A DNA stretch of 49,177 nt from Phascolarctobacterium sp. Lineage in GTDB: Bacteria > Bacillota > Negativicutes > Acidaminococcales > Acidaminococcaceae. The position numbers and the translations under genes are program-made. Shown here in pieces: positions 10,061 through 15,356 of this stretch. The DNA is taken from the NCBI GenBank assembly GCA_017452325.1, contig JAFTMR010000059.1, forward strand, positions 1-49,177, given 5' to 3'. How positions within the stretch are numbered: position 1 is the first letter of the stretch; each line of letters begins with the position of its first letter. A model generated the notes under the pieces. That model made no database searches and was not told the DNA's origin. It saw only the letters and a program-made list of their open reading frames with translations.

Positions 10061-10124
10061 TAGTTTAGAGTTAAATGGGACGAATTTAGGAGAGTTCGCC
10101 ACGTTAGTAAGGAGTTGAGTTTTG

Positions 10125-12062
10125 ATGAAAAAGATGAATAAAGGTATGTTGATGGCTGCATTGATTTGTGGCGTTGTACAATGGGGGGGCACACCGGTAC
10201 ACGCAAGCGAGCTACAAGAGTTTGCTCTTGACGAATACGTTGTTACCGCAGCAAGAACCGAAACTAAATTGGTAGACACCCCTGCCAATATTAGCGTTGT
10301 AGATGCGCAAACCATCGAAGAACGTCATTACCAAGATGTTAGTGAAGTTTTGAAAGACGTTCCGGGCGCGAATGTGTTGGATAATGGTAATGGTGCCAAC
10401 GAAAAGAAAATCATGCTTAATGGTGATGAACGCGTTTTAATCATGGTTGATGGTCGTCGTTTGAACTTTGATATGGGTACTATGTCTCGCTCTGGGTATG
10501 ATATGAATATGTTGCCAGATATTGGTTTAGTGGAACGTATTGAAGTACTTAAAGGTGCTAGCGGAGCATTGTATGGTTCTGATGCTGTTGGCGGTGTAGT
10601 AAATATCATTACCAAGAAAGCAGATAGAAGCTATGGTAAAGTATCGGTGGGATTTGGTTCTCACGATAAACGAGATATGAGTGCAATGTATTCTTTTAAA
10701 GAGGGTAAAACAGGTGTAACTGTTTCTGCCGCAAAAGAAAAGCAGGGTTATTATAAATATAGAGATGCAGCAACTGATTCTACAAAAAGATGGCCCGCTG
10801 ACTCAAAATATGAGAATGAAAAGGTTTCTTTACTTGTAGAACAGGATGTAACAGAAGAAAGTACATTAGCTATTGGTTATGATTATAATAAAGTTGAGGG
10901 TTGGAATGCGTATAACGTTAAATCTTCTTATCCGTATCCCATTGAAAAAAAGACTGAAAATATTTACCTAAAATATGATTGGACTATTAATGGTTCTGAT
11001 AACGGATATATTCAATATTATCATAATGAGCTAGAGTATTTTTATGAAACTATGAAAAATGAAAAAACTAACGGTATTGATTTGCAACAAGAAGTTAATG
11101 TATCTGATGATAATAAGTTAGTTATTGGTACTTCTTGGCGTGAATCTAAAGTATATAATATTGGAAAATATGCTGAAGAAAAAAAGATCGATAATACTGC
11201 ATTTTTTATTAATGATACTTGGGAATTTGCACCTACTTGGACTTTAAATGCTGGTGTACGTTATGATGACCATAGTGAAGCTGGTGATGAAAGTACTTTG
11301 AGTGCTGGATTAAATAAAAAGTTTGATGAAAATAGTCATGCTTATATTAATTGGGGACAAATTTTTAGAACTCCTACAACTGATGACTTGTATTACATTG
11401 ACACATGGAATATGGGCAATCCAGATTTAAAGGCAGAAACTGGTGAAACTTGGACTATTGGATATAATACCAAGGTTGGTAAGAATACAGATCTTGGCAT
11501 TAACTATTTTGAAAGTGATATAGATGATGCTATTGATTGGTTACAATATGATCCTAGTGACTCCTATAAGGTGCGTGCTACTAATATAGCTAAACAGGAA
11601 AAAAGAGGTATGGAATTAACAGTAAATCATAAATTAAATGATAATGTCGCTTTAACTGGTTCATATACCTATTTACATGTAAAGAACAACTATGACAATA
11701 ATGGATTCTTGAGAGATTATCACTATATGCCTAATACTTATCGTGTGGGTATACACTATACTGATGGTAAATGGGATAGTAATATTTGGTTGCGTGCTGG
11801 TAGTGGTGGTTCTACTTCTAAAAATGCAAGATATGGATATGCTGGATATGTAGATTATAACTCTGTTTCTTACTGTGATAGTAGTTATTGGACTATTGAT
11901 ATGGCGATTACATACAAAGCAACTAAAGACTTAAGTTTCTATGCTAAAGGATACAATCTTTTCAACGAAGCTTATGCTGAACAAGCTGGTACCACTAATG
12001 GTTCTTACGACTACCCAGCACAATCCAGACGTTTCATTGTTGGTGCTGAGTACAAATTCTAG
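10125..12062 (+). CDS. TonB-dependent outer membrane receptor
   Basis: A 645-residue ligand-gated outer membrane channel. Residues 1-28 form a signal peptide with cleavage after VHA. A TonB-box-like segment (DEYVVTAARTE) follows, then the plug domain (about 50-165, with VERIEVLKGASGALYGSDAVGGVVNIITKK split over its core) and a 22-strand-type barrel ending in EYKF, the C-terminal aromatic typical of outer membrane proteins. General form is that of siderophore, haem or cobalamin receptors such as CirA/BtuB; the ligand is not clear. Start is ATG at 10125 with TAAGGAG upstream. The barrel portion (about 10620-11930) is visibly richer in A and T than the ends. No TonB/ExbBD or ABC transporter gene is adjacent. 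Regulation by the divergent MerR-family protein is likely. Confidence 0.93.
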   Translation: MKKMNKGMLMAALICGVVQWGGTPVHASELQEFALDEYVVTAARTETKLVDTPANISVVDAQTIEERHYQDVSEVLKDVPGANVLDNGNGANEKKIMLNGDERVLIMVDGRRLNFDMGTMSRSGYDMNMLPDIGLVERIEVLKGASGALYGSDAVGGVVNIITKKADRSYGKVSVGFGSHDKRDMSAMYSFKEGKTGVTVSAAKEKQGYYKYRDAATDSTKRWPADSKYENEKVSLLVEQDVTEESTLAIGYDYNKVEGWNAYNVKSSYPYPIEKKTENIYLKYDWTINGSDNGYIQYYHNELEYFYETMKNEKTNGIDLQQEVNVSDDNKLVIGTSWRESKVYNIGKYAEEKKIDNTAFFINDTWEFAPTWTLNAGVRYDDHSEAGDESTLSAGLNKKFDENSHAYINWGQIFRTPTTDDLYYIDTWNMGNPDLKAETGETWTIGYNTKVGKNTDLGINYFESDIDDAIDWLQYDPSDSYKVRATNIAKQEKRGMELTVNHKLNDNVALTGSYTYLHVKNNYDNNGFLRDYHYMPNTYRVGIHYTDGKWDSNIWLRAGSGGSTSKNARYGYAGYVDYNSVSYCDSSYWTIDMAITYKATKDLSFYAKGYNLFNEAYAEQAGTTNGSYDYPAQSRRFIVGAEYKF

Positions 12063-12401: not shown

Positions 12402-13469
12402 ATGAAATTGAAATCTTTAAAAATAAAAAGCCTTCTGCTTTTGGGAGCGTTGCTTCTAGTTTTGGGCAGCTCTTCCTGTTTTGCGACGGAGCTTTCCAAA
12501 ACGGGAGGGAGTGTTCCAAATCGGAAGGTTGCTTCTGAAATTGGAAAGGGGCTTTCTAAAACGGAAGGGAATGTTCTAAATCAGAAGGTTGCTTCTGAAA
12601 TTGGGAAGGAGCATTCCAAAATGGAAGGTAGTGTTCCGAATCAGAAGGTGGCTTCTGAAAACGAGAGGGAGCTTGTGAAAGGGAAAGGTAGTAATGTTAT
12701 GAAGATTGCTCTGTGTCATTTAGATGTAAGCTGTGGACCGCAGGAAAAGAACCTTGAAAAAATTAGCAGAGCCTTGCAGATTGCAGGGGAGGGTGGCGCA
12801 CGCCTTGTGGTTACGCCGGAAACTGCTGTGCAGGGCTACTACTTCCACCGTATTGATGAGGAGCGCAAGCTAGAGGTACAGCCTGCTCCTTACTTGGATG
12901 GCTTGCGCAATTTGGTGAAGCAGTACGGCGTGTATCTTTTTCTTGGCTGCGGTGAATACGCTGAAGAAACCGGCTTGCATCATAATTCCTGCTTTGTGTT
13001 TGCGCTGGACGGAATCCTGCAAAGCCGTCACCGCAAAATCTACGGGGAGAAGCTGGGAGCAGAGAAGTGGGCAAGTCCCGGCGAGGGTATGAGTACCACA
13101 AATTGCGACGGTCTGCAGGTGGGAGTGCTTGTGTGCGCCGATAGCTGGTTTGACGAAAGACCTCTCAGCTTGAAGGAGCAGGGAGCAGATTTGCTTATAG
13201 ACATTGCTGCCTGGCCGGAGACCAAGGAAACCGGCAATCCCTTGCCTTCTTGGAAGAAGGTTACTAAGATTACAGGCTTGCCTTTCGTGTTGTGCAACCA
13301 GACGGGCAAACCTAAATGGATGGATATGAGTATTGGGGAGAGCGTGGCAATTCAGGATGAGGTTGTCAAATGCAAGTATAGTGGCGACGAGGCAGTGCTC
13401 TTCCTGGAATTTGATACTGCCACTAAGAAAATAGCTTCCAATAAATTTGAAGTAGTTAAGTTTAAGTGA
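12402..13469 (+). CDS. Exported carbon-nitrogen hydrolase (nitrilase superfamily) with N-terminal repeats
   Basis: The 355-residue product has three parts. Residues 1-28 are a signal peptide (basic start, long Leu run, cleavage probably after CFA). Residues 31-98 are three and a half copies of a 20-residue repeat with the pattern LSKTEG-x-V-x-NQKVASEIGK. From Met100 a complete nitrilase-type domain follows, beginning KIALCHLDVSCGPQEKN. The catalytic Glu-Lys-Cys triad is present: Glu in TPETAVQG, Lys in HRKIYGEK and Cys in VLVCADSW. Such enzymes cleave non-peptide C-N bonds (amides, nitriles). An export signal is unusual for this normally cytoplasmic family. The ribosome binding site GGGGATGG supports ATG 12402; an internal ATG at 12699 lacks a good site. 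Substrate unknown. Confidence 0.85.
   Translation: MKLKSLKIKSLLLLGALLLVLGSSSCFATELSKTGGSVPNRKVASEIGKGLSKTEGNVLNQKVASEIGKEHSKMEGSVPNQKVASENERELVKGKGSNVMKIALCHLDVSCGPQEKNLEKISRALQIAGEGGARLVVTPETAVQGYYFHRIDEERKLEVQPAPYLDGLRNLVKQYGVYLFLGCGEYAEETGLHHNSCFVFALDGILQSRHRKIYGEKLGAEKWASPGEGMSTTNCDGLQVGVLVCADSWFDERPLSLKEQGADLLIDIAAWPETKETGNPLPSWKKVTKITGLPFVLCNQTGKPKWMDMSIGESVAIQDEVVKCKYSGDEAVLFLEFDTATKKIASNKFEVVKFK
12489..12691 (+). repeat. 60-bp in-frame tandem repeat within nitrilase-family gene
   Basis: Three nearly full copies and a partial fourth copy of a 60-bp unit, with ends at about 12540, 12600 and 12660. The middle copies differ from each other at roughly ten positions. The repeat encodes the 20-residue linker repeat between signal peptide and enzyme domain. 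Confidence 0.92.
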
Positions 13470-13485: not shown

Positions 13486-13514
13486 TTGACAAAGTATGCT
13501 CCTATTGTTAAGAT
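13486..13514 (+). promoter_or_regulatory. Sigma-70/A promoter for the ATPase-like gene
   Basis: TTGACA (13486-13491) and TAAGAT (13509-13514) with a 17-base spacer, 28 bases before the start codon of the P-type ATPase-like gene. Confidence 0.75.
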
Positions 13515-13541: not shown

Positions 13542-15314
13542 ATGAATACTATTGTCATTAAAATAAAAGGCCTGCGTAGTGCTGCCTGCGTTAGCAGTAT
13601 TGAGTACAAGCTACAGCAGTTACCCCATATGCAGGCTGTTCAGGTGGACTTTGTCACCAGCGAGGTTTTACTGCGCTCCTTTGAGAAAATAAATCTGGAG
13701 GCTGTGCAAGCTATTATTGAAGAGAATGGTTTTACCATGGAGCTTCCTGAAAAGACAGGCGCTCCCAAAAGGCAGAAGCTTCCTCAAAGCAATGCCCTGC
13801 TTTATAGCGGTATAATCTTTGCTGTATTGGGCCTTATTGAAGCTGGCATTCATTACTTTCGTTATAATCTAAGCTTGGAGCTTGTCAAGGCAGCTGCTGC
13901 GGTGGAAATGCTGCTGGTAATTGTGGTTATGAGCTTTGCCTGGCGGTATATAGCTGCCGGAATCAAGCAGCTTTCTTCTGACGTGCCCCATATGGATTCC
14001 TTGCTGGCAGTTAGCAGTATTGTGGCAGTAGCCTATAGTGCTGTTCAGGCTTGCTTTGTTTTTCAGGGTTACGCCAGCGAGTACGATTTGTATTGCGCGG
14101 CGGTGGCGGGAGCAGTGTTCTTTACTTTGTACGGGAAAAGGAATGCTCTGCTGGCAGAGGCGGCCTTTGCTAATTTTAAAACTAATAGCTTCAATTTGCC
14201 CAAGGGAACCTTGCTCATTGGAGAGGAGGAGTATCCCTTGTCAGGCAATTATCTTTTGCCCGGTGATACCATTCTTGTACGAGAGGGGCAGGTCATTCCT
14301 GCGGACGGTATTGTTATTGATGGCAGTGCAGAGGTGGACGAGGCGGAGATTAGCGGCTCCTCAGAGCTGGTTGCCAAAGAAAAGAATGGCGAAGCCCTGG
14401 CAGAGACCATTGTTAAAAGCGGTTGGCTAAAAATTAAAACTACGGCTACGGGCAAGAACGTGAGGGCTGTACAGCTGTGGCGTATGGCAAAGAAATATGC
14501 CAAGGAGCCCAAGACTATGCAAAAGCTTAGACGCAGTGACAAGCTTGCTGCCATCTTCTTACCCATCATTGCCAGTATTAGTGTGGTTGCCGCGTTAAGC
14601 TGGTACTTTTACAGCGGGGATGCTCATTTGGGCTGGAAAGTTCTGGTTTCTGTAATGCTGGGAGCTTATCCCTGTGCGTTGGGCTTTGCTCACAGCAGTG
14701 CTTTGCTGGCAGTGGTAAAGCTGGCTCAAAGCCAAGGCATTGTTTTTAAGAACCCTGCTGTTTTGGAGCAGCTGTATAAGATTTCCCTAGCAGTGTTCTC
14801 CAAGCCCAAGGGCGAAGCTAGTAACAGCATGGAGCTGGTACAGCTTACTGCGCTTAATTATTATCTGGAAAATTCCTTACCGGAGTTCCTTGCTGACGGC
14901 AGGGTGCGCACCGTTGTAGACTTGCAGCCTCGGGAAAAGGCAGAGCTTATCCGCAGTCTGCGTTGGGGCGGAGAGCGTACCTTGGTCTACGGTAACAGAA
15001 TCAGTGATATGCCCCTGCTTGCCAGTGGTGACGTGGGGATGGCAGTGCAGTACAGCGCTACGGAGCAATTTGCGCAGGTTATCCTGCCCAAGGACGAGCC
15101 CGGGCTTATTCTCAAAACCTTGGAGCTTAGCCGCACCCTTAATAAAATTTTTAGACGCAATTCTATTTTAGCCCTGTGCTTTAATATTTTTTGCTTGCCC
15201 TTGGCCATTGGTCTTTGGTACGCAATGGGGGGCTTTCTCTTGGAGCCCCTTGTTCTGGCTTTGGTAATGTTCCTGGGCGGAGCAAGCGTTATTATGAGCA
15301 GTAAGGCTTTTTAA
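13542..15314 (+). CDS. Degenerate P1B-type (heavy-metal) ATPase, probable pseudoenzyme
   Basis: An uninterrupted 590-residue frame with the layout of copper/zinc P1B ATPases but without their catalytic residues. The N-terminal HMA domain (about 1-66) keeps one Cys (Cys16 in GLRSAACV), where the family has CxxC. Membrane helices follow near 85-105, 118-140, 152-172, 183-197, 335-357 and 365-390. The actuator loop TGES is SGSS (271-274). The metal site CPC is Tyr-Pro-Cys (376-378). The phosphorylation motif DKTGT is replaced by SKPKG (420-424), so no phosphoaspartate can form. The nucleotide-binding domain is almost entirely missing, and GDGxND is GNRISD (484-489). The start has AGGAG upstream and the promoter is good. 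Role may be regulatory or metal-binding; loss of function without frameshift is the alternative. Confidence 0.88.
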   Translation: MNTIVIKIKGLRSAACVSSIEYKLQQLPHMQAVQVDFVTSEVLLRSFEKINLEAVQAIIEENGFTMELPEKTGAPKRQKLPQSNALLYSGIIFAVLGLIEAGIHYFRYNLSLELVKAAAAVEMLLVIVVMSFAWRYIAAGIKQLSSDVPHMDSLLAVSSIVAVAYSAVQACFVFQGYASEYDLYCAAVAGAVFFTLYGKRNALLAEAAFANFKTNSFNLPKGTLLIGEEEYPLSGNYLLPGDTILVREGQVIPADGIVIDGSAEVDEAEISGSSELVAKEKNGEALAETIVKSGWLKIKTTATGKNVRAVQLWRMAKKYAKEPKTMQKLRRSDKLAAIFLPIIASISVVAALSWYFYSGDAHLGWKVLVSVMLGAYPCALGFAHSSALLAVVKLAQSQGIVFKNPAVLEQLYKISLAVFSKPKGEASNSMELVQLTALNYYLENSLPEFLADGRVRTVVDLQPREKAELIRSLRWGGERTLVYGNRISDMPLLASGDVGMAVQYSATEQFAQVILPKDEPGLILKTLELSRTLNKIFRRNSILALCFNIFCLPLAIGLWYAMGGFLLEPLVLALVMFLGGASVIMSSKAF

Positions 15315-15318
15315 ATTT

Positions 15319-15356
15319 AACACTCCTACTTTGCGAAGAAGGTGGGAGTGTTTTCT
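15319..15356 (+). terminator. Rho-independent terminator after the ATPase-like gene
   Basis: Arms AACACTCCTAC (15319-15329) and GTGGGAGTGTT (15342-15352) pair with one wobble and are followed by a T run. Confidence 0.8.

Follow-up and report, generated by a model that had tools for sequence, protein, structure and literature searches.

A P1B-type pseudo-ATPase apparently maintained in Phascolarctobacterium, and its possible conversion from metal pump to membrane receptor or regulator

The pseudo-P1B-ATPase gene and its altered motifs

The window analyzed here is a stretch of 49,177 nucleotides from Phascolarctobacterium sp. (contig JAFTMR010000059.1), and its genome has uncultured Phascolarctobacterium MAGs as database neighbours, of which three come from deer gut. 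On its forward strand lies a gene for a protein of 590 amino acids, with an ATG start and no internal stop. A promoter with an extended -10 element is found 5' of the gene, and a terminator-like hairpin is found after it. The features of the locus, with the evidence for each in brackets, are as follows.

13486-13514, +, promoter TTGACA-N17-TAAGAT with extended -10 (TG), conserved across the four species of the genus
13542-15314, +, pseudo-P1B-ATPase gene, 590 aa (open reading frame, Pfam, orthologues, dN/dS)
13554-13733, +, HMA domain, aa 5-64, S13-x-x-C16 in place of CxxC (Pfam, 26.1 bits); most conserved segment in the genus
13794-13976, +, helices MA and MB, aa 85-145 (structure model); lowest conservation in the membrane part, 53% identity
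13992-14171, +, helices M1-M2, aa 151-210; Met151 retained, exit Glu replaced by Ala186, Glu205 position lost (model, alignment)
14199-14447, +, actuator domain, aa 220-302; SGSS (14352-14363) for TGES (Pfam, model, alignment)
14532-14732, +, helices M3-M4, aa 331-397; YPC (14667-14675) for CPC (model, alignment)
14799-14813, +, SKPKG at the DKTGT site, aa 420-424; varies among species (alignment)
14850-14906, +, junction of the deletion of N-domain and HAD motif II, about aa 437-455 (alignment)
14907-15101, +, the half of the P-domain that is left, aa 456-520, 81% identity; K466 (HAD III) and D489 kept, GNRISD (14991-15008) for GDGxND (model, alignment)
15102-15308, +, helices M5-M6, aa 521-589; FN for YN and MxxGG for MxxSS (model, alignment)
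15319-15352, +, terminator-like hairpin (sequence)

The protein is of P1B fold by origin, with an E1-E2_ATPase domain (PF00122, aa 236-393, 3e-30), eight membrane helices and homology to CopA. The Pfam scan of the 590-residue protein did not find a HAD hydrolase domain. Against the heavy-metal P-type ATPase model TIGR01525 the protein scores 177 bits, below the cut-off of 346 (that of TIGR01511 is 397); the four other pseudo members scanned also fall under the TIGR01525 cut-off, and P1B proteins from the genomes G005 and G008 lie above it. An AlphaFold2 model built from 27 aligned sequences (mean pLDDT 82, pTM 0.69) contains the HMA fold, the eight membrane helices, the actuator domain and a small remnant of the P-domain, and the top Foldseek matches of this model are CopA and ATP7B structures. 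The TMq values are 0.65-0.68 to E2-state CopA and ATP7B versus 0.46 to E1 CopA, with rmsd values of 9-13 Å for the E2 entries. These high-rmsd superpositions of a model from a 27-sequence alignment give a faint hint that the protein might adopt a fixed E2-like form.

Column-by-column alignment with intact P1B proteins places SKPKG at the phosphorylation motif DKTGT (aa 420-424), SGSS at the actuator motif TGES (aa 271-274), YPC at the M4 motif CPC (aa 376-378) and GNRISD at motif IV GDGxND (aa 484-489), of which the last Asp, D489, is alone retained. A deletion of about 150 residues has removed the N-domain together with HAD motif II (TGD). The HMA motif CxxC has become SxxC (S13, C16) with loss of the first Cys, and a single HMA Cys makes the classic CxxC chelation of Cu(I) impossible within one domain. 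Several copper-path positions are lost as well, namely E189 of LpCopA, the exit Glu whose role is described in PMC11213822, and the entry Glu E205 and Y682 in AfCopA numbering (PMC9433437). One Cys of the CPC motif (C378) and M576 are still present in the window's genus. The P-type cycle cannot run without the phospho-Asp, the TGE Glu and the nucleotide domain. As judged from its sequence, the protein cannot form an aspartyl-phosphate or hydrolyze ATP by this cycle.

The initial annotation, made from the DNA letters, had described an unbroken frame of 590 codons with a TTGACA-N17-TAAGAT promoter and a terminator, the changes in DKTGT, TGES, CPC and GDGxND, and the missing nucleotide-binding domain, all of which were recovered here. 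The losses in the HMA motif and along the copper path come in addition to those that it listed. It had also recognized an HMA-like domain, membrane helices and an actuator domain in the order of the family, with which both Pfam and the structure model agree, and the structure prediction that it had proposed yielded a coherent model of P1B fold. In E. coli copA, a frameshift makes a separate HMA chaperone. A comparable product was looked for here and rejected, as the linker has neither a conserved slippery site nor synonymous conservation.

Distribution, single origin and selection

Each of the three further species sampled from the genus has a full-length orthologue (75, 71 and 64% identity) in which the motif changes and the deletion recur. 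In all four members the gene sits directly upstream of rnjA and then ftsK, and the promoter is kept in each of them, though the upstream genes differ in two species. Two of the checks suggested by the initial annotation can be answered on this basis. Homologues of full length with the same lost motifs exist throughout the sampled genus, and conserved neighbours are found in rnjA-ftsK; the TonB receptor and exported amidase, beside which the gene had been said to lie, are not constant, being shared with G003 only and replaced by other upstream genes in G001 and G002. Given this variation, neither the TonB receptor nor the amidase, an exported carbon-nitrogen hydrolase, provides evidence of function, and a partnership with them was rejected. 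The TonB receptor (window 10122-12062) has its highest scores against receptor models for B12 and heme, far under their cut-offs. The carbon-nitrogen hydrolase (window 12402-13469) carries about three near-repeats, SKTxGSVxNxKVASExGK, after its signal peptide, and these repeats are not alike between the window and G003.

Three diverged homologues, which lack the phospho-Asp and have the N-domain present, were found in two other genera of Acidaminococcaceae, one in G024 and the others in G013 and G025. The Glu of the A-domain and the first Asp of motif IV are missing from them too. Their genes lie downstream of an aminotransferase gene and a uridine-kinase-like gene, a locus different from that in the window's genus, and no neighbouring gene is common to all three carrier genera. 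The genomes compared are drafts or metagenome-derived and some are incomplete. Among them, 59 genomes of the family and 380 of the class yielded no further pseudo-pump member, no orthologues outside Acidaminococcaceae were seen at high score in the 380 of the class, and a peptide-pattern scan of species genomes returned only the already-known lineages.

None of the seven pseudo members retains the phospho-Asp, the Glu of the actuator domain, motif IV's first Asp or the residues at the E189, E205, Y682 and S715 positions. The phospho-Asp is replaced by Ser in all four members of the window's genus and by Ala or Gly in G024, G025 and G013. The M4 metal motif is YPC in the window's genus, CPG in G024 and CPC in G025 and G013; the surviving Cys of CPC differ from one lineage to another. 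The nucleotide-binding domain with its HP motif is absent in the window's genus and retained in G024, G025 and G013.

A maximum-likelihood tree built from 41 P1B-like proteins sets the seven pseudo members apart from the rest by a branch supported at 100/99, and they still form one clade in quick trees from which the longest branches or either subgroup had been removed. The first tree placed the intact P1B of G005 (L006) next to the pseudo clade, a placement to be read with care because the long branches leave both the relations inside the clade and the identity of the closest intact relative uncertain. Independently of the tree, residues including S13, D36, A186, Y357 and G359 are identical in all seven members, unlike in 20 comparison P1B proteins. 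The single clade and the shared derived residues indicate that the pump probably died, with loss of phosphorylation, before the three genera of Acidaminococcaceae split. The likely order of loss is phosphorylation first and the N-domain later, in the window's genus.

For the closest pair, the window and G003, the Nei-Gojobori dN/dS is 0.166 with dS of 1.05; intact CopA and the ZntA-like pump of the same genome pair give 0.066 and 0.101, respectively. The G025/G013 pseudo pair gives 0.13, and the values over pseudo pairs with measurable dS range from 0.07 to 0.17. This pairwise method saturates, and in several other pairs the synonymous sites are saturated with protein identity still at 63-71%. 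By these estimates the constraint on the pseudo-pump is roughly half that on the active CopA, and its evolution is far from neutral. The constraint is uneven along the protein. The HMA domain is the most conserved segment in the genus (84% mean identity, pN/pS 0.12), followed by the P-domain remnant (81% identity, pN/pS 0.16), and conservation is lowest in three stretches, the segment that once held DKTGT, the linker that follows HMA and the pair of helices MA/MB.

The reading frames are intact in all seven pseudo members, and a broken remnant was observed only in G011, the second species of G024's genus. The orthologous site there is a true pseudogene of two fragments with stops (L132:3223-3549), one from the HMA and one from the C-terminus, with the remainder deleted. 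The gene can therefore be lost, and it is dispensable in some lineages. For the window's genus, the orthologues in three further species and the dN/dS of about 0.17 show the frame to be more than chance. A recent decaying pseudogene was rejected for this genus on the grounds of orthologues with the same losses, the dN/dS values and the conserved promoter. The proposal in the initial annotation that selection, not random decay, has preserved the frame is thus upheld, its dN/dS check having pointed to purifying selection. Overall there is a strong case from the sequences for a protein that is not a pump and is kept by selection.

Possible roles of the pseudo-pump

An intact CopA coexists with the pseudo-pump in six of the seven carriers, the exception being the G024 genome, which is 73% complete, and a ZntA-type pump is present in all seven. 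Metal export in the carriers is therefore covered by other genes. The residues retained in all seven pseudo members correspond to M158, D/E336, the HAD-III Lys and the second Cys of HMA; on the cytosolic side of the window protein, the retained set is represented by Cys16, Met151, an acid at 333 (Asp333), Lys466 and Asp489. In CopA the copper entry site is formed by M158, E205 and D336, and CopZ docks on that face (PMC9433437). The retention of residues on the side where active CopA takes up copper and docks CopZ favours a binding or regulatory protein. The reading that we consider likeliest, with a probability of roughly 40%, is that the pseudo-pump is a CopA-like P1B derivative kept as a membrane-anchored receptor or a docking/regulatory protein working on the cytosolic side.

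From these sequence features we infer the exact job of the protein as follows. The ancestor would have been a CopA-like P1B ATPase that lost phosphorylation and copper translocation before the three genera split; the window's genus would then have dropped the nucleotide-binding domain, and the remainder would have been kept by selection. The single-Cys HMA, the entry residues Met151 and Asp333 and what is left of the P-domain could together serve as a binding surface. Its candidate partner is either an HMA protein, namely CopZ or CopA through its own HMA, or else a metal/thiol ligand. The protein body may be locked in one conformation, perhaps E2-like. It is noted that the role of the HMA/HMBD domain has been called enigmatic even for active pumps (PMC9433437).

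Other explanations were weighed against this receptor or docking role. The HMA and membrane body could have been neofunctionalized to bind a non-transition-metal small molecule or a protein, in line with the loss of metal-binding Cys and copper-path residues and with the pseudo-specific D36, R45, Y357 and G359, which are fixed in all seven members. However, all seven also keep the entry Met and one Cys of the HMA, and such a new ligand appears doubtful. We find it rather unlikely that the protein is a regulatory or structural subunit in a heteromer with intact CopA or another transporter, altering its activity or stability. Pseudoenzymes often regulate active paralogues, six of the seven carriers do have an intact CopA and the membrane body is kept whole in the structure model, but linkage to copA was seen in none of the genomes and P1B pumps generally need no such subunits.

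The initial annotation had favoured a non-pumping role and listed a passive channel among its forms. Pumping is excluded by the sequence, as it supposed, whereas a passive path for copper is unlikely because most of the copper-carrying residues of the membrane are gone. The eight membrane helices are present and the window's genus still has C378 and M576, but the exit Glu, entry Glu, Tyr682 and S715 positions are lost in every member, the surviving CPC Cys vary between lineages and MA/MB are the least conserved membrane part, making a passive metal channel or carrier hardly credible. A slowly decaying relic, with its frame kept only through weak selection against misfolding, would fit the true remnant in G011 and a constraint weaker than that on CopA. 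Against it stand seven intact frames, the conserved promoter and dN/dS of 0.07-0.17 with synonymous sites near saturation at 64-75% protein identity, and we regard a relic of this kind as very improbable.

Comparison with known P-type ATPases and pseudoenzymes

Kinases and proteases are known to include many pseudoenzymes. Among the open-access papers searched, none linked P-type ATPases to the terms pseudoenzyme or pseudo-ATPase, and no natural conserved examples of inactive P-type ATPases turned up. The present proteins may, as tentatively as the receptor role itself, represent a naturally evolved P-type pseudo-ATPase family, maintained by selection, in which a metal pump became a membrane receptor or regulator working through its HMA domain, with intermediates preserved. 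The inactivation steps visible in the clade offer a way to ask what the P1B body and HMA do besides pumping. They also call for caution, as P1B-like proteins of metagenome-derived genomes may not be metal exporters.

The nearest catalytically complete relative found is the intact P1B of G005 (L006), which is 29% identical over the whole protein and shares Arg45 in HMA. Unlike the pseudo-pumps, it has all the catalytic and metal motifs and scores over the heavy-metal P-type ATPase cut-off. It adjoins an ECF S-component gene. The same kind of gene, of riboflavin type, adjoins a P1B of G008 that has no HMA domain and carries CPS and TGEV (L013:1315-3339, L043:3930-4499). The S-component gene beside these intact relatives had no match in any pseudo-carrier and is uninformative on partnership. 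A separate observation concerns three species of g16, another genus of Acidaminococcaceae, whose CopA-like P1B proteins of 613-616 aa have intact TGES, CPC, DKTGT and GDGVND with the nucleotide-binding domain missing (L035:4560-6401, +; L036:198-2036, -; L037:3476-5323, -). The dN/dS of these N-domain-less proteins is 0.10 for the G018/G028 pair.

The P-type ATPase KdpB is a precedent for a subunit that energizes another subunit within a complex. In contrast to the pseudo-pump, KdpB retains the catalytic Asp and ATP hydrolysis, and the pseudo-pump locus is without kdp-like neighbours. With the P1B-1 pumps of the CopA type (LpCopA, 3RFU/4BBJ; AfCopA, 7R0G; ATP7B), the window protein shares the HMA domain, the MA-MB and M1-M6 helices, the actuator domain, the proline kink of M4 and the order of domains. 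It differs from them in having no phospho-Asp, TGE Glu, N-domain or HAD motif II, in YPC for CPC and in the loss of the exit and entry Glu and the Tyr. An engineered counterpart is the dead ATP7B mutant C983S/C985S/D1027A (7XUK, 7XUN), which was studied with the chaperone ATOX1 present, according to the entry title, and in which the Cys of CPC and the phospho-Asp were likewise removed. That mutant is laboratory-made and keeps its N-domain, whereas the losses of the window protein are natural, inherited and more extensive.
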